A DNA stretch of 58,294 nt from a virus, in the IMG/VR virus record IMGVR_UViG_3300025767_000021, positions 1-58,294 of that record; one strand, given 5' to 3'. Every line of letters begins with the position of its first letter. The stretch's first letter is position 1. Below are positions 1,278-58,187 of this stretch, one piece after another. The notes under the pieces are model-generated. The model made no database searches, was not told the origin of the DNA, and saw only the letters and a program-made list of their open reading frames with translations. A program made the translations under genes and the position numbers.

Positions 1278-1287
1278 TATATTTATA
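1278..1287 (+). promoter_or_regulatory. Promoter-like motif TATATTTATA
   Basis: TATATTTATA lies in the 82-bp gap between the portal gene and the next gene, 50 bp before ATG 1337. It is one of 11 intergenic copies of WATATTTATW and would drive the head-core genes to the terminator at 7542. No clear -35 box is seen. The promoter role is inferred. Confidence 0.45.
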
Positions 1288-1336
1288 TACGATGTAATAC
1301 CGTATATTGGTATATTATTATAGGATAAAAAACATA

Positions 1337-2200
1337 ATGAAGAGGGTAAAACATTCAAAATTTAAGAATACAGGTATTCTATTCGAACTTCTAGTGAGAC
1401 AAATCACATTAGAAGTATTGAATGGTGATACGACTGAAAAAGCAAAAGAAATTGTGAGAGAATTCTTCTCACCAGCAACTGAGTTGAATAAAGAACTTAG
1501 ATTGTATGAACTTTTGTTGAAAGAAAAATACAATTCGGAATCAAGAGCAGATAAATTCATTGATACTATTAATGAAGCTCATAATAGAATTGACCAAACT
1601 AAACTCAATAGAGAAAAGTATAGTCTTATTAAAAAGATTAACGAATCATTCAATATGGATGAGTTCCTATCTTCACCTATATCAAACTATAAGGTATTAG
1701 CATCAATTTATAAAGTATTTGAATCTAAGAAATATAAGGATTATGATGTAAAGGATGTATTTAACTCAAAAATTACCCTCATTGAGAACATCACATCTAA
1801 ACCAGCATCTAAAACTGAAGCTAAAAAAGATACTTTAGTTGAGAACTATAAAAAGCAAGATAAGGATTTAAGATTACTTACTTATAAAATTTTAGTAGAA
1901 ACTTTTAACAAAAAATATTCTAATTTAGATGAGAATCAAAAAGCATTGTTAAAAGAGTATATCAATAACTTAACAAACACAACTGGATTCAAAGCTTATG
2001 TTGAGAATGAGATTCCAAAAATTGTGAAAAAATTAAAATCAATTCAATCTAAGATTGGTGATAAAGTAACTAAGATTAAGTTAAGTGAAACTATTTCAAT
2101 TTTATCAAAAACTAAGGTTGGAAAATCAGTTTCAGATAATCATGTTTCATCTCTAATGATGTCTTACGAATTAATCAAAGAATTAAAGAGTAGAGTTTAA
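1337..2200 (+). CDS. Unknown head-region protein between portal and protease
   Basis: 287 residues from ATG 1337, preceded by AGGAT at a workable spacing. A TTG 30 bp upstream also opens the frame but has no ribosome binding site. The protein is lysine-rich and predicted almost wholly helical: N-terminal MKRVKHSKFKNTGILFELLV, a middle rich in Lys/Glu, and a C-terminal helix ending SLMMSYELIKELKSRV. I do not recognise a family. In T4 the small core proteins gp67 and gp68 lie between portal and protease, so a prohead core or assembly role is plausible by position only. Its stop overlaps the next start (TAATG), suggesting coupled translation. Confidence 0.75.
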   Translation: MKRVKHSKFKNTGILFELLVRQITLEVLNGDTTEKAKEIVREFFSPATELNKELRLYELLLKEKYNSESRADKFIDTINEAHNRIDQTKLNREKYSLIKKINESFNMDEFLSSPISNYKVLASIYKVFESKKYKDYDVKDVFNSKITLIENITSKPASKTEAKKDTLVENYKKQDKDLRLLTYKILVETFNKKYSNLDENQKALLKEYINNLTNTTGFKAYVENEIPKIVKKLKSIQSKIGDKVTKIKLSETISILSKTKVGKSVSDNHVSSLMMSYELIKELKSRV

Positions 2201-2646
2201 TGGATAATCTAAGAAAGTTAATTGAGGATTTAATTGAAGAAATCCAAAATGAAGAAATGGATATTGAGGAGGCAACCACGACTGGTGATATTGCTGGATA
2301 CAATACTCCTAATGCTTTCAAAGATACGGATGGTACTGATGAAGATGATGAACCTGAAGATGATTATACTGATAAAATAAATCAAGCAACTGGTTACAAA
2401 CGAGTTAATGAAAATAGATGGTTAGAATTAAAACGGGATGAATCCTCACCAAAGCAAAAAATTGGTAGAGGAATTTCTCATGTTAACAAACAGCTTTCTG
2501 AGATTGAAACCTTCCTTAGATGGTATGGTAAAATCAAAAACGAAAATGGAATTGATAAAGACCAATATTGGAAAAGAACTCAGAAAAATTTATTCAGAAT
2601 TAGAGAAAGACTGAATACTATTGTAACGCAGATTAGTAAATTATAA
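2200..2646 (+). CDS. Unknown small acidic head-core-like protein
   Basis: 148 residues; the ATG overlaps the previous stop by one base. The N-terminus (DNLRKLIEDLIEEIQNEE) is a short amphipathic helix ending in Leu/Ile-x-Glu, like the capsid-targeting leaders of T4 internal proteins. A very acidic linker follows (residues ~40-65), then a basic helical tail with ETFLRWYGKIKNENG and FRIRERLNTIVTQ. No family is recognised. Position and composition suggest a prohead core component; the function is unproven. Confidence 0.7.
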   Translation: MDNLRKLIEDLIEEIQNEEMDIEEATTTGDIAGYNTPNAFKDTDGTDEDDEPEDDYTDKINQATGYKRVNENRWLELKRDESSPKQKIGRGISHVNKQLSEIETFLRWYGKIKNENGIDKDQYWKRTQKNLFRIRERLNTIVTQISKL

Positions 2647-2658
2647 TTGGGAATCAAT

Positions 2659-4158: not shown

Positions 4159-4169
4159 GGATAACCAAT

Positions 4170-5311: not shown

Positions 5312-5315
5312 TACT

Positions 5316-7541: not shown

Positions 7542-7566
7542 AAAGGTGGGTTATCCACCTTTTTTT
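7542..7566 (+). terminator. Intrinsic terminator after core-gene block
   Basis: Perfect 8-bp stem AAAGGTGG / CCACCTTT with a GTTAT loop, running into a T tract (7559-7566). It directly follows the stop of the DUF3008-like gene. Confidence 0.85.
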
Positions 7567-7627: not shown

Positions 7628-7637
7628 TATATTTATT
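7628..7637 (+). promoter_or_regulatory. Promoter-like motif TATATTTATT before scaffold/capsid genes
   Basis: TATATTTATT lies between the terminator and gp22, 150 bp upstream of ATG 7788, in a 249-bp gene-free gap. This is the longest distance to a start among the 11 copies, implying a long untranslated leader if it is the promoter. The role is inferred. Confidence 0.45.
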
Positions 7638-7645
7638 CGTATAAT

Positions 7646-7667
7646 AACCCACTATCTTATGTGGGTT
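7646..7667 (+). other. Hairpin in the gp22 leader
   Basis: AACCCAC / GTGGGTT, a 7-bp perfect inverted repeat with an 8-nt loop (TATCTTAT), 8 bp downstream of the promoter-like motif and 120 bp before gp22. There is no T tract, so a terminator is unlikely; it could stabilise the 5' end of the abundant scaffold/capsid mRNA. The rest of the gap (7568-7787) shows only AT-rich sequence and an AAAAGG ribosome binding site. Confidence 0.5.
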
Positions 7668-7787
7668 GGTTGGTTTATGAATACTAACTTTTAATGTTTA
7701 GTGACCGAACGACCAATTTACAACTATTCTACATTGAGGTTCCTCGAATAACTTCAGCACAAAAACTTAATAAAAGGTAAAAGTAAA

Positions 7788-8944: not shown

Positions 8945-10552
8945 ATGGCAAATTTTGATTTATCTAAACTAATGGAAGGCAAGAACCCACAGTCAGTAAT
9001 GTTGGCTGAAACTAGACAATTAAAGTCTAAGTGGGAACAAACTGGTCTTCTTGAAGGTTTAAACGCAAAAGAGCAAGGCGCAATGTCTGTTCTTTTAGAA
9101 AACCAAGCAAAACAATTGCTTGATGAGGCAAGTGCTACTGGTACTGCTGCAAACTCTGAAGAGTGGAGTGGTGTTGCACTTCCTCTTGTAAGAAGAATCT
9201 TTGGTGAGATTGCTTCTAAAGAATTCGTTTCTGTACAACCTATGAACTTACCTTCAGGTCTTGTATTCTATTTGGATTTCAAATATGGTACTGCAACTGC
9301 TGGTAGAACTACAACTGAATCTTTATTCGGTGGTACTACTTCAGGTGATTTCGGTAGAACTGATTCGGCTGAAAATGGTTTATATGGTAATGGTAGATTC
9401 GGTTACTCAGTAAATGAGCAAGAAGCTACTGTTGTTTCTGCATCTCAAGCTTACGCTACTGCTTCTTGGGCAGAGTTAGGATTTGATGCATCTCTTTCTG
9501 CTTCTCAAGCAGCTGGTGATATTCAGAAATTAACTATCGCTAAATCAGCTATTTCAGCTACTGCTGATGATGATGCAATTACATCATTCATCTTATCTGG
9601 TACTGATTTAGAGGGTACTAACTACAACCAATTCAACAAAGTTGTTGGTTCTAACTATGTATTCTTCGTTAAAGCTACTGGTGCAGTAGATGCTAACGAT
9701 GTAACAGTTAAGTACTCAGTAGTTCCTGCTGATTACTCAAGAGGTGATTTCGAACAATCTTCTTTCACTGTTCCTGGTCCATCAACTTCTGATGACCTTC
9801 AGATTCCTGAAGTTGACTTAGAACTTAAGTCTGAAGCAATCGTTGCTAAGACTAGAAAGTTAAAGGCAGTTTGGACTCCTGAATTGGCGCAAGACCTTAA
9901 CGCTTACCACTCAATCGATGCTGAGGCTGAATTAACTTCTATGTTATCTGATTATATCTCTTTAGAGATTGACTTAGAAATCTTAGATATGTTAAAGTCT
10001 AACGCATTGACTACTGAGTACTGGTCAGCTACAATCGGTGAAGAGTACAACTCTTCAACTGGTGTATGGTCTGCTGGTACATCTGGTGTTGCTTACCAAA
10101 AGAACACTTGGTTCCAGACTTTAGGTACTAAATTGAACAAAGTATCTAACAAAATTCACCAATTGACATTAAGAGGTGGTGCTAACTTCGTAGTTGCATC
10201 TCCTGATGTATGTACAATTCTTGAATCAATCCCAGCATTTACTGTTTCAGCTGATAAAGATGCAATGTCTTTCGCTGCTGGTGTAACTGCGGTTGGTGCT
10301 ATCGCTAACAGATACACAGTTTACAAGAATCCTTATATGACTTCTAACGAAATCTTATTAGGATTTAGAGGTTCTAACTTCCTTGAGACTGGTGCTGTTT
10401 ACGCTCCATATGTACCTCTTATTATGACTCCATTAGTGTACGACCCACAAAACTTCACGCCAAGACGCGGAGTGATGACTCGTTACGCTAAGAAAATGGT
10501 ACGCCCAGAATACTACGGTAAGATTTATGTTAAAGATTTAGCATCTATCTAA
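8945..10552 (+). CDS. gp23: Major capsid protein, gp23-like
   Basis: 535 residues (T4 gp23 is 521); strong AAAAAGGA before ATG. N-terminal MANFDLSKLM and KSKWEQTGLLEGL, then LPLVRRIFGEIASKEFVSVQPM, the characteristic T4-type start of the mature shell region; later GANFVVASPDVCTILESI, and near the end APYVPLIMTPLVYDPQNF and GVMTRYAKKMVRPEYYGKIY. A likely gp21 processing site is L-D-E|A at residues 59-62, close to the T4 cut after residue 65. It forms the hexamers of the head. The next gene is not a gp24 homologue; a GIY-YIG endonuclease follows after a terminator. Confidence 0.96.
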   Translation: MANFDLSKLMEGKNPQSVMLAETRQLKSKWEQTGLLEGLNAKEQGAMSVLLENQAKQLLDEASATGTAANSEEWSGVALPLVRRIFGEIASKEFVSVQPMNLPSGLVFYLDFKYGTATAGRTTTESLFGGTTSGDFGRTDSAENGLYGNGRFGYSVNEQEATVVSASQAYATASWAELGFDASLSASQAAGDIQKLTIAKSAISATADDDAITSFILSGTDLEGTNYNQFNKVVGSNYVFFVKATGAVDANDVTVKYSVVPADYSRGDFEQSSFTVPGPSTSDDLQIPEVDLELKSEAIVAKTRKLKAVWTPELAQDLNAYHSIDAEAELTSMLSDYISLEIDLEILDMLKSNALTTEYWSATIGEEYNSSTGVWSAGTSGVAYQKNTWFQTLGTKLNKVSNKIHQLTLRGGANFVVASPDVCTILESIPAFTVSADKDAMSFAAGVTAVGAIANRYTVYKNPYMTSNEILLGFRGSNFLETGAVYAPYVPLIMTPLVYDPQNFTPRRGVMTRYAKKMVRPEYYGKIYVKDLASI

Positions 10553-10576: not shown

Positions 10577-10606
10577 AGAGGGAAGAGAAATCTTCCCTCT
10601 TTTTTT
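10577..10606 (+). terminator. Intrinsic terminator after major capsid gene
   Basis: Perfect 10-bp stem AGAGGGAAGA / TCTTCCCTCT with a GAAA tetraloop followed by a run of T (10600-10606), 25 bp after the gp23 stop. A classic strong rho-independent terminator for the scaffold/capsid unit. Confidence 0.92.
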
Positions 10607-10625
10607 ATGCTTTTCCATATAACTC

Positions 10626-10635
10626 ACTATTTATA
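10626..10635 (+). promoter_or_regulatory. Promoter-like motif ACTATTTATA before homing endonuclease
   Basis: Weakest of the intergenic copies (core TATTTAT kept), only 7 bp before ATG 10643. If it is a -10-type element the transcript would start at or near the start codon. Confidence 0.35.
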
Positions 10636-10642
10636 TTAAAGT

Positions 10643-11227
10643 ATGAATTCTATGGATAAACAATGTATTTATAAATTAACTTCACCAAGTGGAAAAGTGT
10701 ATATTGGTAGAACCAACGATTTTAATCGTAGGATGATTGAGCACAAATTCAATTCTGAAAAGAGATACAAAGAAAAATACGATTATGCATTATATAAAGC
10801 TATTCGTAAATATGGTTGGAATAACTTTGAAAAAAATATTTTATTTGAAACATCCGATTTAGAAGTATTAAAAAAAGTTGAAGAAGAATTTATATTAGCA
10901 TATGATGCTGTAAAGCGGGGGTATAATAACATTTATGGTTCTGATGGTGGGGATGTGTATAAGGATAACCCAGAGAGATTACAACGAATGAAAAAAATAA
11001 ATAGCGAAAAATTTAGTGGTGAAAAAAATCCAATGTACGGCAAAACTCATTCGGATGAAACCCTAAAAAAACTTCAACAAAAGGCCAAAGGTAGATTCTC
11101 TTTAGATTGGTACATAGATAGAAATGGAAAAGAAGAGGGTACTCGTTTGTATGAAGAACGAAGAGTGTGGTTAAAGAGTAGAAATCTTAAAAAAGATGAA
11201 AACGGAAGATTTCTAAAGGCAAAATAA
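10643..11227 (+). CDS. GIY-YIG homing endonuclease with NUMOD3-like DNA-binding part
   Basis: 194 residues. The N-terminal nuclease domain shows CIYKLTSPSGKVYIGRT (the paired GIY/YIG tyrosines), the RRMIEH arginine segment and a glutamate in VEEEFILAY (~residues 5-95). The middle has GEKNPMYGKTHSDET, a NUMOD3-type motif, and the C-terminus has WYIDRNGKEEGTRLYEER, seen in other phage homing endonucleases. It is a free-standing intergenic endonuclease after gp23, beyond the terminator, with its own promoter-like motif. There is no sign that it interrupts a gene. ATG 10652 is an alternative start that leaves more room for a leader. Such genes usually spread by cutting endonuclease-free relatives near the insertion site. 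Confidence 0.9.
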   Translation: MNSMDKQCIYKLTSPSGKVYIGRTNDFNRRMIEHKFNSEKRYKEKYDYALYKAIRKYGWNNFEKNILFETSDLEVLKKVEEEFILAYDAVKRGYNNIYGSDGGDVYKDNPERLQRMKKINSEKFSGEKNPMYGKTHSDETLKKLQQKAKGRFSLDWYIDRNGKEEGTRLYEERRVWLKSRNLKKDENGRFLKAK

Positions 11228-11243
11228 GTTTCTTCAGAAATTT

Positions 11244-11253
11244 AATATTTATA
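11244..11253 (+). promoter_or_regulatory. Promoter-like motif AATATTTATA
   Basis: In the 31-bp gap after the homing endonuclease, 5 bp before ATG 11259. As with 10626, the short distance would imply a very short or absent leader if this is a -10-type element. Confidence 0.4.
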
Positions 11254-11258
11254 CACAT

Positions 11259-11474
11259 ATGAATTGGTTTGAATTTTATAACAATAATAAAAGTAGTGGT
11301 ACGATAAATGAAATCGTACAGGCATACAACACTTATATTTTTCAAAACCAAACACCTGAATTGTTAGAAGAAGCTATGAGAAAGTTGGGTACGAATAATA
11401 TGATACTACAAGAAAACTCATATGCTATTCTTCAAGAAGGTCAAAACGAATACGGATTATTACAAGAGATATGA
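11259..11474 (+). CDS. Small unknown protein with LQE repeats
   Basis: 71 residues. N-terminal half (MNWFEFYNNNKSSGTINEIV) is mixed; the C-terminal third repeats a short pattern, ILQENSYAILQEGQ then GLLQEI. It overlaps the next gene by ATGA, so the two are probably translated together. No family is known to me; it may be a partner of the 548-aa fibre-like protein. Confidence 0.6.
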   Translation: MNWFEFYNNNKSSGTINEIVQAYNTYIFQNQTPELLEEAMRKLGTNNMILQENSYAILQEGQNEYGLLQEI

Positions 11475-13117
11475 GTAAACCAAGAAGAATAACCGAACTA
11501 CCATTAACCACAAATCCCTCCATTAGTGATTTAATCGCATTGGCGAGGGTAGGTTCTAATAGTAGAGTAACCATTGGTTCTTTGTTAAATGCAGAACTCC
11601 CGTCCACATTTGGAACTACCACTATAAATGGTGATTTGAATGTAAATGGAAACTTGAATGTATCAACCATAGTATCCGCATCAATCATATATGAAAGTGG
11701 TTCAACCATTTTCGGAAATTCATTAGATGATACACATGATTTTATAGGTGATGTTTCTATTACAGGTTCTCTATTTGTAAGTGGTGGAACTGAATTAGGT
11801 GGAGATATCTATCCACAAACCCCACAAGGAGCAAGATTGGGAACTCCCGAAAATCCATTCAGAGAAATCTACCTTCAATCGGGTTCTATTACTATTGAAT
11901 CAGATACACCAGGTGACCCTTCTGCTAAAATATCAAACTTTAATGGAAATGTTGATATTAAAGCAGCTGGATTTTCTGTAACATCTGGTTCTATTTCTCC
12001 ATTTATCATCAACAACCAAGGGCAGATAAAAATACAAAACAAATATCAAGACCCTCAAAATGAAGCAATATTTCAAGTTATTGGTAATAACGAAGGAAGT
12101 CAATCTGCCGCTGTAAACCCTGGTGGTATGATTCACATCACCGGATTTGATGGTGTTCCAAATAGAAATGTGTTTGACTCGTATGGTGGTGGTGGAGTAT
12201 TTTCTCAAGTTATTCTAAGGAATGCAGCTGGTACTGCCGCAAATCCAACTTCTACTGTTGCTGGAATCATTGGTAGAGTGGCAACATCTGGATATATTAC
12301 TGATATCGGATTTGGTATAGAAGGAGTAACTGGTCCACCTGCATCAATGAACTTTTATACACCTGGTTATAGAAGTGGTAGTAGGGAAACTATGATTCGT
12401 TTTTATGCAACTGCTGATAACGAATTAGACCCCAACGGTTACTCTGCTGTAATCAAAGCAGAAGGAATGGAAGTTACTGGTTCGGTTGATATAAGTGGTG
12501 ATTATACCATAAACGGAAACTCATTCTCATCTTCATTATTCCAAAGTTCATCTATATCGGGTTCAGTTATCCAATTCACAAAAGGTGATACAACTACACA
12601 ACAAGTCCAAATACCAAAAGGTTTAGGATATAGTGGATTGGGTTGGGCAAGATATAATGATACAACTTATACAACTTTATCAGCATTTACAATAGAAGAT
12701 GGTGCTGATGTAGTATTACCCTGTAATGGGTCTGGTTCTATTGAAACACATATGCATTCAACAGTTTCTTTTTATACAGGTGCTGGACAAAAACTACAAG
12801 CCGAAAATGCAGGTGATGTATATACACTAACTGTTGATTTTACTATGAGAGCATCAAACAATCCATCAGATGGTGATTATGTTAGAATACAAATGAATAA
12901 CACTACTGGAACTCCATATACTAGAGTAGGTAGAGATTTATTTTTTGCAAAAAAGGATACTGAATGGCACAAATTTCACGAAATTTTCCAATATTACGCT
13001 GATGCAGATTTTGTGGCAAATGGAAATGAAATAAATGTAATACCATCTGGATTTGATATTGAAGTTGCAGATGTAGTAATTTTTATTCAAAGAACTCAAA
13101 ATCATTCACAGCACTAA
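11471..13117 (+). CDS. Fibre-like virion protein (548 aa), possible head or neck fibre
   Basis: 548 residues, ATGA-coupled to the preceding gene. The N-terminus has KPRRITELPLTTNPSISDLI, which I associate with adaptor segments of phage fibre proteins. A beta shaft rich in Asn-Gly, Ser-Gly follows (GDLNVNGNLNV, ASIIYESGSTIFGN), sharing a module with the giant proteins. A middle part is consistent with beta structure (GARLGTPENPFREIYLQSGS). The C-terminal ~150 residues (GWARYNDTTYTTLSAF, WHKFHEIFQYY, ending HSQH) look like a globular tip, possibly C1q- or TNF-like. Position between gp23 and gp13 makes a head or neck fibre plausible, but a tail location cannot be excluded. Confidence 0.65.
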   Translation: MSKPRRITELPLTTNPSISDLIALARVGSNSRVTIGSLLNAELPSTFGTTTINGDLNVNGNLNVSTIVSASIIYESGSTIFGNSLDDTHDFIGDVSITGSLFVSGGTELGGDIYPQTPQGARLGTPENPFREIYLQSGSITIESDTPGDPSAKISNFNGNVDIKAAGFSVTSGSISPFIINNQGQIKIQNKYQDPQNEAIFQVIGNNEGSQSAAVNPGGMIHITGFDGVPNRNVFDSYGGGGVFSQVILRNAAGTAANPTSTVAGIIGRVATSGYITDIGFGIEGVTGPPASMNFYTPGYRSGSRETMIRFYATADNELDPNGYSAVIKAEGMEVTGSVDISGDYTINGNSFSSSLFQSSSISGSVIQFTKGDTTTQQVQIPKGLGYSGLGWARYNDTTYTTLSAFTIEDGADVVLPCNGSGSIETHMHSTVSFYTGAGQKLQAENAGDVYTLTVDFTMRASNNPSDGDYVRIQMNNTTGTPYTRVGRDLFFAKKDTEWHKFHEIFQYYADADFVANGNEINVIPSGFDIEVADVVIFIQRTQNHSQH

Positions 13118-13139: not shown

Positions 13140-13149
13140 TATATTTATA
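13140..13149 (+). promoter_or_regulatory. Promoter-like motif TATATTTATA before neck genes
   Basis: In the 61-bp gap before gp13, 29 bp upstream of ATG 13179. It would drive gp13 to the 4477-aa giant gene (~17 kb). Role inferred. Confidence 0.5.
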
Positions 13150-14784: not shown

Positions 14785-15875
14785 TGAATAAGAAGGAAAC
14801 AAATAGAGCGCTTCAGAGAAGTATCCAAAAAGAGTACACTAAAGGTGTAAAACTTTTGGATATTGATTCTACTATTGCAGAATATATGATTGATACTATC
14901 ATACCTGAAGTTGAGGAGCATGGTAACAAAGTTAAAGTTCCTCTTCTTTACGGAAATGCGGAAAGATGGAATAATGCTAGAGCAAAAGGATACCTACGAG
15001 ACCAAAGAGGTAAGATTCAAATTCCTTTGGTAATGTTCAAAAGAAACTCCATCGATAGACAAGATGGGATGGCTCAATTCAAAGATGTAAACACATTACC
15101 AGCCTACAAAAAATATTCTAAAAATAATAGATACGAACGATTTTCATTACAATTAGGAGCAAGTAAAGCTTTTGAACAATACGAAGTTTCTGTTCCTGAT
15201 TATGTAACAGTAACTTATGAGGTAATGATTTGGACATCATTTACCGAACATATGAACGCTATCGTAGAACAATTCCAATACGCTACTGATAGATATTGGG
15301 GTAAGGAAGATGGATACAAATTCAGAACTAGAATTGATTCGTTCGATAACCAACAAGAAGTAGGCGAAGGTTCGGAGAGAATTATCAGAACTTCTTTCAC
15401 AATGGTGGTAAACGCTTATTTACTTCCTGAAACCTATGATGAAAAACCTCAGGTTAAAAAATCATTCACCCCTAAGAAAGTTGTTTGGGGTATTGAGACA
15501 GACTTAACGGGTCAAACATTTACAAATCCTAATATTTATAATGAGTACCAAAATGTTATAGACTTTGTGGCAATTAGAGGTTCTAAAGATGCGGTTTATG
15601 TGAGTGATACTACTGCAAAATTAACAAATGTAGAACTTCCAATTTTACCACAAGAGTTAGTAGGTGTATTTGATACGAGAAATTGGTTTAGAGTTTACAT
15701 AAACGGATTATTCATTACACCAGATGCATATACTTTTACATTCAATGGTACTACTAATGAAATATTATTTACATTTGATTTAACACTGGTGTTTGAGCAA
15801 GGTGATAGGGATATTTTGAATACTTTGGAAGAGTTAGATGAAATTTCAATAACTGGTAAATTTATAGAATTATGA
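14784..15875 (+). CDS. gp15: Tail sheath stabiliser / tail completion protein, gp15-like
   Basis: 363 residues (T4 gp15 is 272; the extra length is C-terminal). By memory alignment to T4 gp15: VKVPLLYGNAERW against a VPITY strand, TVTYEVMIWTSFTEHMNAIVEQF against the T4 helix-strand EL-IFTRYEDDM-QIVEQ, and RTSFTMVVNAYLLPE against SLTFEVNGWMYPP. gp15 caps the top of the tail tube and sheath and joins it to the neck. The last ~130 residues, with VDFVAIRGSKDAVYV and WFRVYINGLFITPDAYTF, look like an added beta domain. Overlaps the next gene by ATGA. Confidence 0.75.
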   Translation: MNKKETNRALQRSIQKEYTKGVKLLDIDSTIAEYMIDTIIPEVEEHGNKVKVPLLYGNAERWNNARAKGYLRDQRGKIQIPLVMFKRNSIDRQDGMAQFKDVNTLPAYKKYSKNNRYERFSLQLGASKAFEQYEVSVPDYVTVTYEVMIWTSFTEHMNAIVEQFQYATDRYWGKEDGYKFRTRIDSFDNQQEVGEGSERIIRTSFTMVVNAYLLPETYDEKPQVKKSFTPKKVVWGIETDLTGQTFTNPNIYNEYQNVIDFVAIRGSKDAVYVSDTTAKLTNVELPILPQELVGVFDTRNWFRVYINGLFITPDAYTFTFNGTTNEILFTFDLTLVFEQGDRDILNTLEELDEISITGKFIEL

Positions 15876-22700: not shown

Positions 22701-25700
22701 AACAATTGATGGTTTGATTAAGAGAGGTGATGTGAATCAGATAACTTCTTCATTAAGTATTTCATCTGGTACACTTTCAAAAATATCTTCATCATTTGCA
22801 ATCGTATTGGATATTATCCAAAATGGAACTGGTTCATTGCCAACTCAAATCGATAATACAACTGAAGGTATTAAAGTAACTAATCTATCTCCGGGTATTG
22901 GAGAACTTGAGGATTACACTGGTATTTTACCAACAATATCCGCATCATTTGCAATTGTATCTGATGCAATATTAAATGGAACTGGTTCAACACCAACTGC
23001 ATCACTTTATGGTTCTCCAGTAAATGATACTGATATCATAACCGCATATGGTTTGATTACCTCAAGTGTAGCATTTATTCAAGCTGAAACAATAGCTTAC
23101 TTATCATCATCTTGGTCAACTTTCGAATACAACGAAGCAAGTTGTAGTAGAGATGTTGGATATATCGTAAATGGTGTGGCTGAGGATTTAAGATATGGTG
23201 TAGTATCTGCATCGGTGGTAAACGCTAAGTACTACTATGAATTCCCATCTGAAGCAACATCATCACAAGCAAATCAAACAGTAGATGGTATCAACTATGC
23301 ATATAGATTGACCGAACAAATTATCAAAGGTGTATCATTCGTAACTGCATCACAAGATAGATTGGATACTGAAACTATCATTAGAAATAATGTGAACTTT
23401 ATCAAAGAAGAAGCAATCACATTCTTATCTTCAAGCTGGTCTACATTTGATTACAACGAAATTACTTGTAAGAGAGATATCGGATACATCTTAGATGCTA
23501 CCATTACTGATATTGTATATGGTGGTAACGAAAGAAGTATCAACGCAGGTGTATTCTATTACAAATATCCATCTGAAGCAACTGGTTCACAATTATTCCC
23601 AACATTGGATGGTATTCAATATGCTGGTGAAGTTACTAAAGAAGTGGTTAGTGGTTCAATATTTATCGAACCATCTTCAGTTAAATTAAACGCATACGAA
23701 TTAGTACATCAAAATAGAGAACTAATCCAAGATGAAGTAATTTCTTACATCTCATCTTCTTGGAACTCATTTGATTACGATGATGTTAAGTGTAGACGAG
23801 ATGTAGGATACATCTTAGATGCAGCAACAACTGATTTCATCTACGGAGGAAATGAGAGAAGTGTAATCGCTGGAGATTTCTATTATAGATATCCATCACA
23901 AGCAACGGGTTCACAATTGAATCAGACAGTAGATGGTATCGTTTACGCTCAGAGATTGGCGGATAAAATGTTAAGTAACACTCTCTTAGTAACCGCATCG
24001 TTGGAAAGAAGAGAGGTTTATGATTTAATTGAACGAAATAGAGAATTAGTACAAGATGAGGTAATTTCTTACATTTCATCTTCTTGGGTTGGATTTGATT
24101 ACGACCAAAACAAATGTAGAAGAGATGTTGGGCATATCTTAGATGCCGTTGCAACTGACTTGAGATATGGTGGTAACGAAAGAAGTGTTATTGCTGGTGA
24201 GTACTATTGGTTATACCCATCGGATGCAACTGAAGGACAGAAAGTAGAAACTATCGATGGTATCGTACATGCAGCTAACTTAGTTCAAAAGATTGTTCAG
24301 AATGTGGTACTACAATTACCATCATCCGATAAGTTGGAAGTTTGGAATACTATTAGAAACAATAGAACACTAATCCAAGATGAGACTGTTGAGTATATTG
24401 ATTATGCATTCCCATTCTTAAACTACAATAAAACAAAATGTAGAAGAGATGTTGGACACATTTTGGATGGTGTAGCAACTGATGTTCTATGGGGTGGTAA
24501 CCAAAGAAGTGTGAAGAGTGGTGATTTTTATTATAGATATCCATCATTAGCAACCGGTGTTCAAATTGAAGAAACTATTGCTGGTATCAGATACGCTCAA
24601 AGTTTATTGAAAAATATCGTAGTTGATAATACTTTAGAATCACCATCATTAGTTCTTAATACGGATGGAAACATAAGGGTAACTTCATTTGAACCTACAT
24701 TATCTTCAATTGCATTGAGTGGTTCATATCAAACCGAAGTTAGTAAATCGATAGATAGTGTAACTGGAATTATTACAACTGGAATTAAATCGTACACTCC
24801 AACTACTGCAACTTACAATCCTGCAACTGGTGATTTCGCAATGACAATCGTAAGACATGGTTTAAGTGTTGGTGATAGTATCTATCTAAAACCTGAATCA
24901 TTCACATTCACTTGTGAAATGGATGGTAATAGAACCGAACACAAATTACCTTCAGCTGGACAACCTGCATACGATAGTAGATTAACCATTAAATCAGTAA
25001 CATCAAACACTGTAACTGTAAATGTTGGAGCATCTGGTCCAAACATTGAGTTCAACCCAACTAACGCATCTTATGACCCAGCAACTGGTGATTTCGTAAT
25101 CACTGTTGGGGAACATACTTTAAGTGTTGGTGAGGGGGTTGTACTTGCAACTGGTTCATTCGCATTTACTTGTGAAATGGATAATAACCAATCGGTTAAA
25201 TCTTACCCTCGATTTGGAATCGACCAATATTCAGTTCGTTCATTACCAATCACTGCGGTAAGTGATACTACGATGACAGTAAATGTTGGAGCATCTGGTC
25301 CAAACAAATACTTCACACCTGTATCTGCCTCTTACAACGCATTAAGTGGTGATATGACTCTGACTGTAAGTGAATCATTCGGATTGGGAGTTGGTAGAAG
25401 TGTGGTGTTAGAAAACGAATCATTCGCATTCACTTGTGACCAAGATGGTGATTTAACAACTCACTCTTATCCAAGAAGTGGTTCAGACCCATACGCTGAA
25501 AAATCAATTGTGATTACTTCAGTTGGTACAACATCACATACTCCAACCGATGCTCCTTACAACCCATCAACTGGTGTGGTAACATTAACAATTGCAAATC
25601 ACGGATTTAGTAATGGTGATTATGTGAAAGTTGATGATGGTGCATTGACTTATACTTGTGTATCTGATAACAACCAAACCGAACATTCGTACCCAAGAGC

Positions 25701-30196: not shown

Positions 30197-30206
30197 GATA
30201 TTTATA
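30197..30206 (+). promoter_or_regulatory. Promoter-like motif GATATTTATA
   Basis: In the 35-bp gap after the 4477-aa gene, 18 bp before ATG 30225. Would drive 30225, the 3645-aa giant, the LRR protein and the chaperone. Role inferred. Confidence 0.45.
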
Positions 30207-43463: not shown

Positions 43464-43473
43464 AATATTTATA
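43464..43473 (+). promoter_or_regulatory. Promoter-like motif AATATTTATA
   Basis: In the 52-bp gap before ATG 43495, 21 bp upstream of it, with AAAGG between. Would drive two small genes, the 3624-aa fibre and the gene at 55054. Role inferred. Confidence 0.45.
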
Positions 43474-44174: not shown

Positions 44175-47100
44175 ATGGAATACGGAGGAAAGAACCCAAA
44201 CGGAATCAATCAGGTCAGTCAAAGTTTACTTTCGATTGATGTACAGGGAGTAGAGCAGATTAATATATCAACTTCTTCGGTTGATATTAACACATCTTTA
44301 AATGTAGAGAATGGTATAACTGCATCTTCATTTAGCGGTTCTTTTGTAGGGGATGGTTCAGAATTGAACAACATTCCCACAACTGCATTAACTGGTGATA
44401 TTGCTAGAATTGCAGAAGGTTCAGCAACGGCATCCGTATCCAATGGAACAACTTTAGAAATTAATGTAACTACAAACATCGATGGTGATGTTAATGCAAC
44501 TGGTGAAATATCTGGTGCATTTATTAGTGGTGATGGTGGTGGATTATTCAATGTACCTGCTGAGGCATTGGGTGATATCAATAGAATCAAATCGGGTTCA
44601 GCTCAAGCAGCAATTTCTCCAAACTTCGGATTAGTAATTGATGCAGAAACAACAATCAACAATGATTTAACAGTAACTGGTTCAACTACCATAGAAACGG
44701 ATTTGACAGTTGATAATGATTTATCAGTTGGTAGAGATGTTAGTATTGACAGAAACTTATCGGTAGCCGGTAGAATTACCTCACAAGAATTATTAACAAC
44801 ATTTATTTCATCATCAGTAATTTACTCATCAGGTTCAAATGTGTTTGGTGATGAATCTTCAGATACCCACCAATTTACAGGTTCAGTTTTAATTAAAGAT
44901 TCGGTAGTAATTCCAGTATTTAGTTCAGAACCATCTGGTGGGCAAATCGGACAATTGTATTATAACGATTCCGATACCAACATTTATAGATACACTTCAA
45001 CTGGTTGGGAACCTGCAGCTGGTACTGCTGGTACTTCTGGGACAAGTGGTACATCTGGTAGTTCGGGTTCTTCAGGTTCTTCTGGTTCATCTGGAACATC
45101 TGGGACTAGTGGTATAGATGGTTCATCTGGTTCAAGTGGAACAAGTGGAAGTAGTGGTACTGATGGTTCTGCTGGTTCATCTGGCTCATCTGGTTCAAGC
45201 GGTAGTAGTGGTTCTTCTGGAAGTAGTGGTTCTTCGGGTTCATCTGGAAGCAGCGGAAGTAGTGGTTCTTCTGGTACAAGTGGTACTTCTGGAACAAGTG
45301 GAAGTTCTGGTTCTTCTGGAAGTAGTGGAAGTAGTGGAACTAGCGGAAGTAGTGGTAGTAGTGGAAGTAGTGGTTCATCTGGCTCATCTGGTAGTTCTGG
45401 TTCATCTGGCTCATCTGGTGCAGATGGTGCAGATGGCTCATCTGGTAGTTCAGGTTCTTCTGGTGTAAGTGGTTCATCAGGTTCTTCTGGTGTAAGTGGT
45501 TCATCGGGTTCATCCGGCTCATCTGGTAGTTCTGGTTCGTCTGGTTCTTCTGGCTCAAGTGGTAGTAGTGGTTCTTCTGGTGTAGATGGACAAGATGGTG
45601 TTGGTGGTTCAGCTGGTACTTCTGGTTCTTCTGGTTCATCCGGCTCCTCTGGTTCATCTGGTTCAAGTGGTAGTTCTGGTATTGATGGAGATGATGGTTC
45701 ATCTGGAAGTAGTGGTTCGTCAGGTTCATCTGGTTCTTCCGGTACATCTGGTAGAGATGGTGCTGGTGGTGAAGGTGGTACACCTGGTACATCGGGTAGT
45801 AGTGGAAGTTCTGGTTCTTCTGGTTCATCAGGTTCTTCTGGTTCAAGCGGTAGTAGTGGTAGTAGTGGCTCTTCTGGTACATCGGGAACTTCTGGTACAA
45901 GTGGTTCATCTGGTTCAAGTGGTAGTTCAGGTAGTAGTGGTAATGATGGTGCATCTGGTGCACCTGGTTCATCTGGAAGTAGTGGAAGTAGTGGAAGTAG
46001 TGGAACATCAGGTTCATCAGGTACCTCAGGCTCATCTGGTTCTTCGGGTTCTTCTGGAAGTAGTGGAAGTTCTGGTTCATCAGGTAGTTCGGGTTCATCA
46101 GGTTCAAGTGGTAGTAGTGGAAGTAGTGGTTCATCTGGCTCATCTGGTTCCTCTGGTTCTTCTGGATTATTAGCATTAACAGGTACAACAAATAATGGTG
46201 TGATTACCCTAAATGGTTCAGCACCAAACGCAACTGTTGAAAGTAATCTTACTTTCGATGGAACAACTTTAGTTGTTACTGGTAACCTAAGTGTTACTGG
46301 AACAACAACAACTGTCAATACGGAAACCATCCTATTGGCTGATAATATTATCACCCTTAATTCAAACTTTACATCAGGTACTCCATCTGAGAATGCTGGT
46401 ATTGAGATATTAAGGGGAGGTTCGGCAACTCGTCAATTTATTTGGAATGAGGGAAGTGGTAGATGGTATGCTGATACTAACTTCCAAGCGGCTGGTAGAA
46501 TTTACGCAAACGATATTGATACTGGACAGGGTGCAACTGAGGTTTATTTAATGAACCAAAACATCCGTACATCCGATTCACCAACATTTAATCAGTTATA
46601 TCTTTCTAATAATGGAAATGGTACAAATATAAGAATTGGTGATGATGCATGGTTTGGTGATACGAATGTAGGAAATACAATTCAAATAACTGGTGTTCAG
46701 GATGCAACTCAAGGTTATTTAGTATTCGGTTCATCAGATAATACGGCATTGGGTAGAAGTGGTACAGGTGCACTTACTTATGGTGGAAATACTATTTGGC
46801 ATAGCGGAAATGATGGTGCTGGTAGTGGATTAGACGCTGATTTATTTGATGGACAACAAAATACATCATTCTTCAGAAGTTTATCTGGTGGAAGTGGTGC
46901 TAGTATAGATTCATATACTGATAACGGATTCAGAACTTTAGGATATAGTGGATATTCATCAATCTTATGGTCAACTAATGCTGGTGGTTCTACTGGAACT
47001 GTCCAAATGGAGTTTGAATACAATACTCCATCTCGTGGATTTAAAATTAGAAACAAAACCGATAATAGTAGTTGGTCTTCGGTTGGTTGGGTAGCAATGA

Positions 47101-50100
47101 CTACTTCAAATCAAGGGCATATCAATGGAACGATTTGGCATAGTGGTAACGATGGTGCTGGTTCTGGATTAGATGCAGATTTATTGGATGGTTTAGAATT
47201 ACATACAGGTAGAAATAACGAAGCAAACAAAGTAGTAAGAACCGATGTTAATGGGTATGTTAACTTTGGCTGGATTAACACAACATCTGGTAACACATCA
47301 TCTACTATTTCGGACATCTATGTAAACACAAATGATGGATATATTAGAAAAGCAACTCCATCACATTTCAGAAGCCAAATATTGGATGGGGTTTATACAC
47401 CATTAGACCATATTCGCTCATTAGGAACACAGGCATTTACTGGTACTGCTACAACTGCTGGATTGATTTCCGAAATGGAAAGTGATGGGGCATTCGATTC
47501 ATATACTTCAGTATTTAAAACTTCTTGGAGTTATGCTGGAAACTTTGACTTATCGGATGCTGGAAGATTTACTGAAACTGCGGGTTCATCTTGGATAACT
47601 TGGACAGATAACTCATCGGATTCAACAAGGGGTAATATTACTGCATTAGCAATCGCACCAAATACTGGTGGTTCGGCTGGTAAAGTATTCATATATAATG
47701 ACCAAGGTAGTAGTTATGCACCCGGTTGGAGAGAAGTTTGGACTTCAACTTCGGATGGTGCTGGTTCTGGATTGGATGCTGACCTTTGGGATGGATATCA
47801 ATTCTCAGATTACTTAAACCAAGCGGTTAGAACTACCGATTCTCCTACATTCTCAAATTTATATGTAGATGGATACATTTATCACAATGGTGATACAAAT
47901 ACATACATTCGGTTTGTAGGTGCAGATGATTTCCAAATTGTAGCAGGTGGTAGACAAGTTCTTAGAATGGATGAAGGAACTGACCCAGATTTATTATATT
48001 TGGGTGATTCTGCTACATATACTGTAAATCAAGGACAGCTCATCGTTGGTCAAACTTCCATTTCTTATACTATAAATGATAATACTCCATTGGTTGGTTC
48101 AAATACCAATAATCGGGTACATATTAATGGCTCAATTCAATTGACCAACAATGATGATGCTATTGTGTTTGGTAGAGGAACTTCATCATTCTTAAAAGAT
48201 GAAGAACTTGGCTTTGGTTGGGGTGGTGGTTGGTATATGACCGATGGTACTTACCTAAGAGTAAGAAATAACAAAACCCTTTATTCAACTGGTGATTTCC
48301 ACTACAATAGATTCTATTCATTTGATAATACTGGATATTTTGCAGAACCAAATTCATCATCTGTATTCAGAGATTTAGAACTTAGAACTTATGGTTTAAG
48401 ATTACAGAGAAACTATTCTTATAATGGTATTTGGTTCAATGGTGGTACTGATACAAACCATGTTCTTTGGAATCATTATTATGGTGGACCAACATCAAAA
48501 GGTGCTGCTGGTAGTGGTGGTTTTGATGGTATGTTCTGGAATACCTTACAAGGTTTAAGATTAAGAGGTGGTTCTAGTGGAGCATATGATATTGCACACT
48601 TCCACAATACATCATCATCTACATCAAACGCATTCTATGTACAATTATTTGCGGATAATACCGAACAATTGGGAACTAGAGGTGGTTATGGTTATGCACC
48701 TAACCAATTCCGTACACCATTTATATATGATTCAAATAATACCGCATATTATTTAGACCCAAATAGTACATCTCGATGGAATGAATCTAATCAAGATGGA
48801 TATCATACATTTAATAATTATGGTATTGGTGTAACTGGTACTTATTCTGCAAGTAGATTACAACTTGTATTTGCGATGGGTTCAGCGTATAGACCAAATT
48901 CAGCTGGAACATCAACCGCTAATATGTATGGTATTGGTTGGTCGCATCCGAATGCAGGTTCATTGGGTGGGGCAAACAATTTGAATGACCATGGTTTATT
49001 GATTATCAATAATGGTTCGTTTAGAGCAGCAATTTCATCTCGTATTGTTGCATCGGAAGAAGTTAGAGGTACTCTCTTTAGAGATTACAATAATAGTGGA
49101 TATTATGCAGACCCAGCATCAACATCTCAGTTATCAGTAATTAATGTAAACGGACAAGGTTCTGCATTTACCAACCAAACATACCCATTATATGTGTATT
49201 CATATGGTAATACTGCTAGTGAATCTGCTAACGGATTACAGGTATATTCTACTGGTGGTGCTGGTGCTGGATTCGCATTCCATAGAGGTGGATACTACGC
49301 GGTAAATATGGGTCTTGATTCTGATAATGTTATTCGTATTGGTGGTTGGAGTGCAGCTTCTAATAGATGGCAGTTGGATATGAGTGGTAACACTTTTGCA
49401 GCTGGTTCACATAGAGCACCAATCTTCTATGATACGAATAATACTGCATATTATGCGGACCCTAACTCAAACTCACGGTTCTATGACTTACAACTCAGAG
49501 GACACTATGTAAGAACATATACACACTCTGGTTCCGATTTCACATCGGGTACATTAGTATCAACATCAATACCATCATCGGCTACAAATGGGGCATCCTT
49601 TGTATTGGAAGCAACTGGTAAGAGTTACAGTGGTGATGCTCCATTCTCATTTATGGCACAGGGTTACCTATATGCTAATACCATCATCAATTATAGTGGT
49701 GTTCATTTTGGTAAGCCAGGATTTACACAAATGAAGATATTCAATAATGGTGGAACACTTGCATTCTGGTGGCCAAGAGTATCTTATTGGAATTCATTTA
49801 CAGTACATGTTAGAGATGCTAATGGTGATGATAGAAACTTAGTAACATCAATTACTAACTCAACCGAACCAACTGGTAGTAAGAAAGTAACTGTTAATAT
49901 GTTGGTTAGTGCAACATATGGTGTTAATAACAATACTGGTGATTTATATGCAACTAGGTATTATGATTCAAATAATACGGCATTCTATACTGACCCTGCA
50001 TCTACATCTCAAATGAACTATATCGATGCACATCGATTTAGAGATAGAGATAACACCTCATATTACTTAGAACCTGCTAGTGGTGCTACTCTTTATGGTA

Positions 50101-55049: not shown

Positions 55050-55053
55050 TAAG

Positions 55054-55296
55054 ATGGCAATTACACAAAAAATAGTTTTAAACAAATTGGATATTAATGT
55101 TCAAAATCCAAGTATGGAAGTTGTTAAGAGAGTTTCTTTTTACGAAGGTGAAGAGGAACTTAATAGAACTCATATTTCAATTATATATTCATTTGAAAAT
55201 GAAGAAAATTTGTATGTGAGTGAATCTCAATATATACAAGACACTTGGACATTTGTATCAGCTAGTTTCATAGAAACCTCAGGAAGTATTTCTTAA
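55054..55296 (+). CDS. Unknown 80-aa protein
   Basis: 80 residues starting 4 bp after the fibre stop. ITQKIVLNKLDINVQNPSM, RTHISIIYSFENEENLYVSE, ending FVSASFIETSGSIS. Looks like a small beta protein. No family recognised. Probably cotranscribed with the fibre. Confidence 0.6.
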   Translation: MAITQKIVLNKLDINVQNPSMEVVKRVSFYEGEEELNRTHISIIYSFENEENLYVSESQYIQDTWTFVSASFIETSGSIS

Positions 55297-55306
55297 TGAG
55301 GTAATA

Positions 55307-55316
55307 TATATTTATT
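55307..55316 (+). promoter_or_regulatory. Promoter-like motif TATATTTATT (first of two)
   Basis: 75 bp upstream of ATG 55391; a second copy lies 42 bp downstream with a hairpin between them. Confidence 0.4.
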
Positions 55317-55324
55317 TGTTAGAA

Positions 55325-55345
55325 TAATTCTCTTTTGGAGAATTA
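55325..55345 (+). other. Hairpin between two promoter-like motifs
   Basis: TAATTCTC / GAGAATTA, a perfect 8-bp stem with a TTTTG loop. No T tract follows, so it is not a classic terminator. It may be a weak terminator or processing site ending the fibre transcript. Confidence 0.5.
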
Positions 55346-55348
55346 CTC

Positions 55349-55358
55349 TATATTTATA
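55349..55358 (+). promoter_or_regulatory. Promoter-like motif TATATTTATA (second of two)
   Basis: 32 bp upstream of ATG 55391; AAAAAGGAAA is the ribosome binding site in between. Confidence 0.5.
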
Positions 55359-55390
55359 CTTGAAAAAACAAATTTAAAAAGGAAAATAAT

Positions 55391-55795: not shown

Positions 55796-55817
55796 TTGTT
55801 GGTTTGAACATTTTGGT

Positions 55818-55827
55818 TATATTTATA
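55818..55827 (+). promoter_or_regulatory. Promoter-like motif TATATTTATA before tail sheath
   Basis: 41 bp upstream of gp18 ATG 55869, directly followed by a small hairpin. Confidence 0.5.
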
Positions 55828-55852
55828 TAAGTAATAACAAAATCATTACTTA
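55828..55852 (+). other. Hairpin in gp18 leader
   Basis: TAAGTAAT / ATTACTTA, 8-bp stem with a 9-nt loop, between the promoter-like motif and the gp18 ribosome binding site (ACGGAG). No T tract. Confidence 0.4.
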
Positions 55853-55868
55853 ATAATACGGAGATAAT

Positions 55869-58160
55869 ATGGCAGAAAGAATTGTTTCACCTGGTGTGTT
55901 TACAAGAGAAAATGACCTTTCATTTTTAGCACAAGGTGTAGGAGAAATTGGGGCAGCGTTTATAGGACCTTTTAAACAAGGCCCAGCGTTCGTTCCCACA
56001 ATCGTTAGAACTCAATCGGAATTTGAGGATAAATTTGGTACACCTGATGGTACTTACTATACAGAATATGCAGTACAAAACTACTTGAGAGAGGCTGGAA
56101 CTGCAACAATCGTTAGAGTAGCGGGTGTTGGTGGTTATGAGCAAGTAGCACCTATTGGTTTAAAAGCTAGTGGTTCATTTGGTGAAACATTAATCGGAGT
56201 TCTTCATTCAACAAACAATGGTGATGAAGCAGTTGGATTTAGTGGTTTTAGTGTATCTAATGGAACGGCATCTGGTTCATTTGTAGTTAGTGGTAGTGGT
56301 ATTGGTGAAGTATCTTCATCTTTATTATCATCTGATAACAATGATGTAACTGATGTATTTGGTGTATCTGCATTGGGTTCAAAAGATGCATACACATACA
56401 CTTACTTTAGGAACGCTTATTCTGATATTGATACTGCTATTACTGGTGGTGTTGTAGTACAGGCTGAAGCTTTACCAACGCAAGACTTTACTTACGATGC
56501 TAGTGTAGCGGCAACTCCTTGGGTTAAATCACAACTTATCTCCGGTGAAAGATATGACCTATTCCGTTTCCATACTTTAGGACATGGTAATGGAGAAAAT
56601 ACAAGATTCAAAGTTTCTATCTCTGGTGTTAAAGCAGCGGGTGAAGATGGTGGTACTGATTACTCAGTATTTAGTGTAACTATCCGTTCATTCTCAGATA
56701 CTGATAAGAGAAAAGTAGTATTAGAATCATTTAACAATGTAAACTTAGACCCATCATCACCTAACTATATTGCAAGAGTGATTGGTGATAGATACTATAC
56801 TGTTAACTCAGAAGGTAAGATTAGTGAAAATGGTGATTGGTTAAATAACTCTAAATATATTAGAGTAGAAGTTGGTGCACAAGGTTCTTACCCTGTATCA
56901 GCTGCACCATTCGCACATGGAGCTTACGAAAACTCAATTAAAGTAACTGACCCAACATTAGTACCTGCGGTAGTTTACCAAACAACTTCAACTTCAAACA
57001 CAACTGGTAATCCTTACCAATATGCTGGTTTCAACTTTGAAACTGCTGGTGTTAAGTTGGATAACGCTAACTACTTAAAACCAATTCCTGATGCAGCTGG
57101 TACTGGCTCGAATGTTGTATTCGGATTTGATTCTCAGTTATCATTGGAAATGACTGGTTCTGCAGCAGCAGATATGATTAAGAGACAATTCACATTGGCA
57201 TTCCAAGGTGGATTTGATGGAATGAGTCCTGCTAGAGAAATCTCTTTAGGAGCATCAATCTCAGCTGGTAACTCACAAGGATTTGATTTAACCGATTCAA
57301 CTGCTAGTGGTTCAGTAGCATACGCTAAAGCTGTGAACGCAATCTCTAACGCTGATGAGTTTGATATCAATATGGTAGTAACTCCAGGTATCGTAAGAAG
57401 ATTACACACCGCAGTTGTTACTGATGTATTGGATATGGTAGAAGCTAGACAAGATTGTTTCTACATCTCTGATTTCACCGCAGTAAATGATACTATCGCT
57501 CAAGCAACCGCACAAGCGGCAGCAGTAGATTCTAACTATGTTGGAACTTACTACCCTTGGGTTAAGACAGTAGATACGAATACTAACAAACTAATCTCAG
57601 TTCCACCTTCAGTATTACTTCCAGCGGTTTACGCAGCAAATGACGCTATTGCAGCTGAATGGTTCGCACCTGCTGGTTTGAATAGAGGTGGTATTGTAGG
57701 AGCAGTTTCAGTTCTTAATAGATTGACTCACTCTGAAAGAGATACCTTATACGAAAACAAAGTAAACCCAATCGCTTCATTCCCTGGACAAGGTATTGTG
57801 GCATTTGGACAGAAAACTCTGCAAGATAGAGCATCTGCTTTAGATAGAATCAATGTAAGAAGATTGTTAATTAATGTTAAGAAGTTTGTGGCATCTACTT
57901 CTAGATTCTTAGTGTTCGAACAAAATACCGCTACAACAAGAGGTAGATTTATCAACACCGTACAACCTTACTTAGAAGCAATTCAACAAAGACAAGGTTT
58001 ATACGCATTCAAAGTAGTTATGGATGAAACTAACAACACTCCTGATGTAGTTGATAGAAACATACTTGCTGGACAGATTTTCTTACAACCGGCTAAGACC
58101 GCTGAATTCATTGTAATTGATTTCAACATCTTACCAACTGGAGCATCGTTCTCGGCATAA
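55869..58160 (+). CDS. gp18: Tail sheath protein, gp18-like
   Basis: 763 residues (T4 gp18 is 659); ACGGAG before ATG. N-terminus SPGVFTRENDLSFLAQGVGE and AAFIGPFKQGPAFVPTIV, then LREAGTATIVRVAG: the conserved start of contractile sheath proteins. C-terminal part has NRLTHSERDTLYENKVNPIA, RRLLINVKKFVASTSRFLVF and TAEFIVIDFNILPTG, the conserved sheath domain. The middle (~130-480) is a variable surface insertion with Gly/Ser-rich stretches. The protein forms the sheath around the tail tube that contracts on infection. gp19 follows 49 bp later. Confidence 0.95.
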   Translation: MAERIVSPGVFTRENDLSFLAQGVGEIGAAFIGPFKQGPAFVPTIVRTQSEFEDKFGTPDGTYYTEYAVQNYLREAGTATIVRVAGVGGYEQVAPIGLKASGSFGETLIGVLHSTNNGDEAVGFSGFSVSNGTASGSFVVSGSGIGEVSSSLLSSDNNDVTDVFGVSALGSKDAYTYTYFRNAYSDIDTAITGGVVVQAEALPTQDFTYDASVAATPWVKSQLISGERYDLFRFHTLGHGNGENTRFKVSISGVKAAGEDGGTDYSVFSVTIRSFSDTDKRKVVLESFNNVNLDPSSPNYIARVIGDRYYTVNSEGKISENGDWLNNSKYIRVEVGAQGSYPVSAAPFAHGAYENSIKVTDPTLVPAVVYQTTSTSNTTGNPYQYAGFNFETAGVKLDNANYLKPIPDAAGTGSNVVFGFDSQLSLEMTGSAAADMIKRQFTLAFQGGFDGMSPAREISLGASISAGNSQGFDLTDSTASGSVAYAKAVNAISNADEFDINMVVTPGIVRRLHTAVVTDVLDMVEARQDCFYISDFTAVNDTIAQATAQAAAVDSNYVGTYYPWVKTVDTNTNKLISVPPSVLLPAVYAANDAIAAEWFAPAGLNRGGIVGAVSVLNRLTHSERDTLYENKVNPIASFPGQGIVAFGQKTLQDRASALDRINVRRLLINVKKFVASTSRFLVFEQNTATTRGRFINTVQPYLEAIQQRQGLYAFKVVMDETNNTPDVVDRNILAGQIFLQPAKTAEFIVIDFNILPTGASFSA

Positions 58161-58177
58161 TCAAAAAATGAAAAACT

Positions 58178-58187
58178 AATATTTATT
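58178..58187 (+). promoter_or_regulatory. Promoter-like motif AATATTTATT before tail tube
   Basis: 22 bp upstream of ATG 58210, with AGGAAA between. It suggests separate transcription of the abundant tube protein. Confidence 0.45.

Follow-up and report, generated by a model that had tools for sequence, protein, structure and literature searches.

An oriented AT-rich box before virion genes in a putative Far-T4 phage, very probably a late promoter read by a diverged gp55-like sigma factor

What directs transcription of the virion genes in a T4-like phage whose intergenic gaps repeat an AT-rich word that does not match the T4 late promoter? The question is raised by virus record IMGVR_UViG_3300025767_000021, of 58,294 bases, which we analyzed whole (the window), and in which a T4-like virion gene block lies on a single strand (portal, protease, major capsid, homing endonuclease, head-tail adaptor, and giant genes) and is punctuated by the word ATATTTAT, here called the box. 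A sequence-only reading of this DNA had listed eleven copies, and all eleven are present at those sites, intergenic, on the plus strand, and with the core TATTTAT; the ten-letter form WATATTTATW that it proposed is exact in nine of them, with the copies at 10626 (ACTATTTATA) and 30197 (GATATTTATA) deviating. We consider it very likely that ATATTTAT(A/T) is the late promoter of a Far-T4-type phage, read by a sigma factor of the family of gp118 of Flavobacterium phage immuto, a probable diverged homologue of T4 gp55.

Every one of the ten window gaps that reach 30 bp has TATTTAT on the coding strand, with two copies in the gap at 55297-55390, and none of the five gaps of 10-29 bp has a box. Over the 15 gaps of at least 10 bp (873 bp), ATATTTAT is found ten times forward and never in reverse, whereas in 2000 dinucleotide shuffles of the gaps it averages 0.43 copies and never exceeds 4. 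Inside window genes there are four copies, compared with a synonymous-codon-shuffle mean of 5.0. These counts are the enrichment check proposed with the original list, and they bear it out; the copies at 15531 and 51159, which had been given as 9/10 matches, are in fact exact over ten letters, and the other two are at 23659 and 43959. The intergenic DNA is 78% A+T, and an AT-rich composition could by itself have been the source of the word, but this is refuted both by the shuffles and by the strand asymmetry, which amounts to 270:19 in the relatives described below, and we give it practically no weight. The control used in pattern searches, the word read backwards (TATTTATA), belongs to the same motif and is thus not a fair one.

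Relatives were collected with the major capsid protein gp23 (8945..10552, plus strand; phrog_138, E 6e-73) as query. A tblastn search of phage records placed LR756508 (uncultured), immuto, the Microcystis-labelled Mel-JY01, and Rhodothermus phage RM378 at the top, and of at least 599 confirmed capsid relatives among viral contigs the best 80 were analyzed, with mechanical gene calls and with the redundancy among the 80 kept. In these relatives ATATTTAT occurs 270 times forward and 19 times in reverse in 45.4 kb of intergenic DNA, and 103 times forward and 50 times in reverse in 1.006 Mb of coding DNA. Of the 281 sites with neighbors on both sides, 263 have the box in the orientation of the gene that follows (8 more sites are at contig edges), and an intergenic forward copy is missing in 7 of the 80 relatives. 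It is present in 239 of the 419 gaps of at least 30 bp (in reverse in 16), and ranks first when all eight-letter words in the same gaps are counted. An expectation-maximization (EM) model seeded with TATATTTATA has A, T, A, T, T, T, A, and T at 94-99% per place, followed by A (70%) or T (27%), with T before the core at only 50%.

Conservation in place is seen in G001, a close relative with a record of 252,603 bases and a capsid protein 82% identical to that of the window. G001 has 41 intergenic boxes, compared with a shuffle mean of 3.9, and the word is avoided inside its genes, with 9 copies observed and 24.6 expected from codon shuffles (range 15-33 in 100); no such avoidance is found in immuto (10 versus 8.2) or in the window. 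Eight window boxes were compared with G001, leaving out 10626, 11244, and 55307, the first two because the neck gene directly follows gp23 in G001. Six of the eight are aligned in place, all on the plus strand: 1278..1287 (TATATTTATA) in the gap 3' of the portal gene, with the same box in the orthologous G001 gap at 98790; 7628..7637 (TATATTTATT), preceding the gene immediately upstream of gp23 (G001 104273); 13140..13149 (TATATTTATA), preceding the head-tail adaptor gene (107323); 30197..30206 (the variant GATATTTATA), 3' of the first giant gene (125312); 55818..55827 (TATATTTATA), preceding a tail sheath gp18-like gene (154348, where the next gene matches the immuto sheath); and 58178..58187 (AATATTTATT), preceding a tail tube gp19-like gene (156736, followed by a gene that matches the immuto tube). 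These sheath- and tube-like names derive from matches to G001 and, via G001, to immuto genes. For the plus-strand boxes at 43464..43473 (AATATTTATA), which heads the unit with the third giant gene, and 55349..55358 (TATATTTATA), the second of a pair in one gap, the paired G001 gap also has a box that the alignment does not superpose; the former is shifted by a few bases (141377), and for the latter the pairing of gaps is itself uncertain. The remaining three, likewise on the plus strand, are a variant at 10626..10635 (ACTATTTATA) preceding the homing endonuclease gene, whose C is the main form of a sister clade (see below); 11244..11253 (AATATTTATA), preceding two genes of unknown function described as "fibre-like" in the sequence-only reading; and 55307..55316 (TATATTTATT), the first of the pair. 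In immuto, the terminase, tail spike, sheath, tube, and hub genes are among those following intergenic boxes, and a box at 125,520, ahead of the gene before gp23, falls in an annotated 31-codon open reading frame and is outside the 21 counted.

Enrichment, orientation, and this positional conservation support the earlier suggestion that the boxes are promoters of transcription units. Box copies follow both of the intrinsic terminators reported with them. The first of these (7542..7566, plus strand), upstream of the box at 7628, was read by eye, a scan having flagged its hairpin on the minus strand only; the plus-strand hairpin at 7542-7562 is AAAGGTGG-GTTAT-CCACCTTT, followed by TTTTATG. The second (10577..10606, plus strand), between gp23 and the box at 10626, was found by the terminator scan, with a hairpin at 10577-10600 and a T run. 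With a median distance of 20-27 nt from box to next start, the word could also be imagined as a signal on the coding strand for RNA processing, translation leaders, or replication; however, in the window it occupies all ten longer gaps, in two cases downstream of a terminator, and is absent from the five gaps of 10-29 bp, and two classes that share a -7-like core are unevenly divided over the genome, which makes this highly improbable.

Those two promoter-like classes are found in both G001 and the cultured immuto, one being Bacteroidota-type (TTG, a spacer, and TATATTTG or TATATTTAG) and the other the box. The likeness to the Bacteroidota -7 element noted at the outset thus proved apt, with host-type promoters having a -33 and TATATTTG elsewhere in the G001 genome and a similar class in immuto. 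The strict element of immuto (NC_055915), TTG, 17-20 bp, and TATATTTAG, occurs 20 times forward and never in reverse genome-wide, with 19 intergenic, and forms a very uniform promoter series at 60-76 kb, often followed by GTATCAATAATTA, before mainly small hypothetical genes. The G001 sites read TTTGG, spacer, TTTCGTATATTTGT, a sequence similar to the Bacteroidota promoter in the literature, and the pattern TTG-N17-20-TAnnTTTG finds 18 in intergenic DNA. Across G001 as a whole this loose pattern lacks strand bias (33 forward, 27 reverse), and the case for a host-type class there is therefore made by the additional letters that the sites have in common and by their location ahead of genes. The box class precedes virion genes and some others, whereas the Bacteroidota-type class is missing from the virion block: in immuto, 14 of the 21 boxes and none of the 19 host-type sites are in the block (Fisher 5.5e-6), and the corresponding counts are 12 of 41 and none of 18 in G001 (0.012), where no host-type promoters were found from 85.1 to 165.8 kb, the region of the capsid and tail genes. 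The window gaps likewise have no forward host-type sites, and two are inside genes.

Could the box nonetheless be an ordinary -7 element of the host sigma (sigma ABfr) lacking a good -33, such that a phage sigma is unneeded? TATATTT is common to the box and TAnnTTTG, and the -33 is weak even in probable Flavobacterium johnsoniae promoters (PMC6847099). When boxes were tested for a -35/-33 element, taken as TTG at host spacing alone, immuto was somewhat above background (5 of 21, compared with 7%), but G001 was at background (3 of 41, compared with 9.5%). The box has neither the -33 TTTG nor the complete -7 TAnnTTTG of sigma ABfr; the final G of the latter is near-invariant in host promoters (PMC6847099) and the box has A there (99% in the EM model), the T preceding the core is T in only half of cases, and host-type promoters are present in other regions of both genomes. 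We therefore regard reading by the host sigma as quite unlikely.

A candidate for a dedicated reader is present in the relatives. The gp55 family phrog_234 matches a single immuto protein, gp118 (78,174-78,872; E 0.008), and 11 of the 23 records searched have a homologue, including G001 (46,928-47,593), Mel-JY01, and LR756508; the other 12 records are 43-124 kb long. The gp55-like sigma suggested in the sequence-only reading accordingly exists as a family in relatives, although no member was found within the window. The match between a profile of 28 gp118 members and one of 18 gp55 members has E 0.0036 and runs collinearly for about 100 residues, starting at the N-terminus. An AlphaFold model of the G001 member (26-sequence alignment; predicted local distance difference test [pLDDT] 84) has T4 gp55 in the open complex as its top structural match (7d7c_F; Z 9.9, root-mean-square deviation 5.6, 116 residues), and the 50 matches listed are, by title, sigma factors or RNA polymerase complex chains, including RPSH, RPSB, and RPSD, which we take to be Bacillus sigma names. 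The modeled fold is that of sigma region 2, and the family is probably a diverged homologue of T4 gp55, for which sequence support is weak and the best fold match is gp55 but tied with other sigmas. In a Sigma70_r2 search of six records, the RM378 sigma matches with E 1e-15, and the single G001 match, below cut-off (E 0.026), is inside the gp118 homologue. When the C-terminal part of this sigma was modeled separately, structure matching gave no clear family (best Z 5.7, to an SRP protein; 5.0 to SigR sigma region 4, 5fgm), and we therefore do not assign it as a sigma-4 domain. The RM378 sigma family, phrog_1740, has no match in immuto or Mel-JY01 and two weak ones in LR756508, one with E 0.005 that falls within the gp118 homologue and another with E 0.2; the search matched in 14 of 14 control genomes and therefore says little. 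The genes leading to immuto gp118 are preceded by a host-type promoter at 76,218, and a box is directly 3' of gp118 at 78,884; of the 90 sigma loci that extend 150 nt or more downstream, 23 show a box in the first 120 nt past the sigma stop, a span in which reverse copies are absent.

Mel-JY01 (PP395634) is recorded from Microcystis, although it has one of the best-matching capsids and both the box and a sigma homologue; the host label may deserve checking.

The letters of the box can be compared with the base contacts of gp55. T4 late box letters (TATAAATA) do not occur forward on the window coding strand and occur 11 times in reverse, 8 of these inside listed boxes; TATTTATA is the exact reverse complement of TATAAATA, which is nearly palindromic, such that a same-strand match is also 6/8. 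When TATATTTA is aligned with TATAAATA, the only differences between the boxes are at -9 and -8; in an alternative register, TATTTATA on TATAAATA, the match is the same 6/8 and the differences fall at -10 and -9. We assume the former register, which is favored because of the host -7 element TATATTTG and because the late box of Aeromonas phage Aeh1 varies at -13/-12, as does that of the sister clade. In T4 gp55, A-12 is against Y97, A-9 against N13/H95, and A-8 against T99 (PMC7892883). With the residue correspondence taken from the profile alignment, the 28 gp118 members have Y at the Y97 position in all 28, F (16) or Y (12) at H95, G (14), S (9), Q (4), or T (1) at T99, and T at R57 in 27.

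Natural variation in the box appears to go with these pocket residues. The sister clade (sigma loci L132-L195) uses CTATTTATA, with CTATTTAT 115 times forward and once in reverse. Across 80 sigma loci (L116-L195), the two pocket places are Y+G in 61, F+Q in 17, and F+G in 2; the largest Y/G sequence group (56 loci) has 101 C and 27 A boxes, compared with 27 A and 13 C in the largest F/Q group (16 loci). In nine sigma-capsid pairs that share a record, the pocket of the sigma is F+S (8) or F+T (1), and the 40 intergenic copies at the capsid loci include 35 A and 1 C. This association of A or C with the pocket is suggestive, with few independent lineages and maybe one or two phylogenetic events. 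It bears on the alternative that the box is a promoter read by some other phage or host factor, such as a different sigma or an activator. LR756508, which has a gp118 homologue and no comparable set of boxes in the 142 kb examined, would suit that alternative; the gp118 homologue, however, is the only Sigma70_r2 match in G001, and the clade-variable base goes with residues aligned to gp55 base pockets, and we judge another reader to be unlikely. As a separate observation, AAAGGTTATG is enriched in the intergenic DNA of the sister clade, possibly as start-codon context.

Several observations weigh against the box being a late promoter read by a gp118-family sigma. LR756508 is a clear exception, in that its gp118 homologue is about 40% identical and has the same F/Y/S pocket letters, and intergenic ATATTTAT occurs once in the part examined (142 of 484 kb). 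At the sister-clade sigma loci (n=64), intergenic ATATTTAT is unoriented (31 forward, 32 reverse), and immuto mixes both box forms (21 A, 15 C). Boxes are not confined to the virion blocks, with 7 of 21 outside in immuto and 29 of 41 in G001, the block limits having been chosen after viewing the map, and some boxes are less than 8 nt from a called start. The phrog_234 search, at a loose limit of E 10, also matched in 7 of 14 control genomes; gp118 against gp55 gives E 0.5 in a direct scan, and the hhalign probability of the profile match is only 9%. There is no Pfam match for gp118, and none to Sigma70_r2 in four of the six records searched (immuto, Mel-JY01, G010, and G019). Structural matches within 1 of the top Z are tied with gp55, and Z values of this size can arise by chance between helical folds; with Foldseek alone, the G001 model has no match under E 0.001. 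Finally, the gp45 clamp (PF02916) is over cut-off in none of seven relatives searched, with a positive T4 control and a weak LR756508 match (E 0.011).

As a side observation, TACTTAT is intergenic 7 times forward and never in reverse at three LR756508 loci (L254, L015, and L255), and is a weak candidate for a late box of its own.

A plausible course of events, if a gp118-family sigma reads the box, is that the host sigma would first, early in infection, read the Bacteroidota-type promoters (TTG, 17-20 bp, and TATATTTG or TATATTTAG), which would lead units of other genes and probably yield the phage sigma. The gp118-type sigma would then, on host RNA polymerase, open the DNA at the box, and transcription would start a short way downstream, mostly before virion genes, with the -33 element unused; the window phage would be expected to encode such a protein as well. 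More tentatively, T4-type late sigmas may adapt to the promoter style of their hosts: T4 would have kept the TATAA of Escherichia coli and Far-T4 phages the TATATTT of Bacteroidota, with the box end changed in each such that the host sigma does not read it, the pocket residues for -9 and -8 changed in step, and a further A-to-C switch in the sister clade.

RM378 is the reference of the Far-T4 group, whose phages are described as common in fresh and sea water (PMC4360716), and a later paper ties them to marine Bacteroidetes (PMC7198788). RM378 gp23 is among the best full-length matches to the window gp23 (38.7%, by similarity ranking), and we infer that the window phage is probably a Far-T4 phage with a Bacteroidota host. 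In PMC4360716, T4-core transcription-regulation genes were reported as not detected in Far-T4 genome fragments and their transcription was left open; among the open-access papers listed in our searches, none deals, by title or start of abstract, with late promoters of Far-T4 or Bacteroidetes T4-like phages, and a word search of PMC7077304 returned no mention of promoters or of immuto. A named box and a named sigma candidate in cultured immuto make Far-T4 late transcription directly testable. The box would also give unit maps for hundreds of contigs (at least 599 capsid relatives), and the natural series of sigma and box variants is material for the study of changes in promoter specificity.

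Two further features of the window adjoin the boxes. The homing endonuclease gene and the next two genes (10608-13117) are absent from the corresponding place in G001, where gp23 is followed by a similar terminator and then directly by the neck-gene box; in the window, the boxes at 10626 and 11244 serve these extra genes alone. A hairpin at 7645-7668 (TAACCCAC...GTGGGTTG), situated in the long leader that separates the box at 7628 from the gene before gp23, is partly conserved in G001.

How, then, does the box compare with known systems? The RM378 sigma (phrog_1740) is a recognizable Sigma70_r2 protein, outside the gp118 family by these searches, and RM378 has no intergenic forward boxes in the 50 kb read; it is nonetheless from a T4-like phage of a Rhodothermus host that is counted as Far-T4, with its sigma gene near gp23. 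The Bacteroidota primary promoter (TTTG/TAnnTTTG; PMC6847099) shares the TATATTT core, but the box is without a -33 and has A-T in place of the near-invariant final G; in probable F. johnsoniae promoters, T-12, A-11, T-8, T-7, T-6, and G-5 are near-invariant (PMC6847099). The Aeh1 late box, with a/gC at -13/-12 (PMC2988020), is similar in that two upstream bases vary between lineages, as with A to C in the sister clade, and differs in that only the -13/-12 change is named, so that the remainder is T4-like. From the T4 late promoter TATAAATA, with gp55, gp33, and gp45, the system departs in the TT for AA at the center of ATATTTAT(A/T), in a sigma that is barely recognizable by sequence and has an extra helical C-terminal part, and in the below-cut-off gp45 searches. 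The claim that this is not the classic T4 late promoter is thus right by letters, but by kind the box looks like a variant of it, and by mechanism like a T4-type late system: an 8-bp, TATA-like AT box at the -10 place without a -35, in coding-strand orientation at the unit heads of virion genes, and, like gp55, a candidate phage sigma with a sigma-2-like domain.

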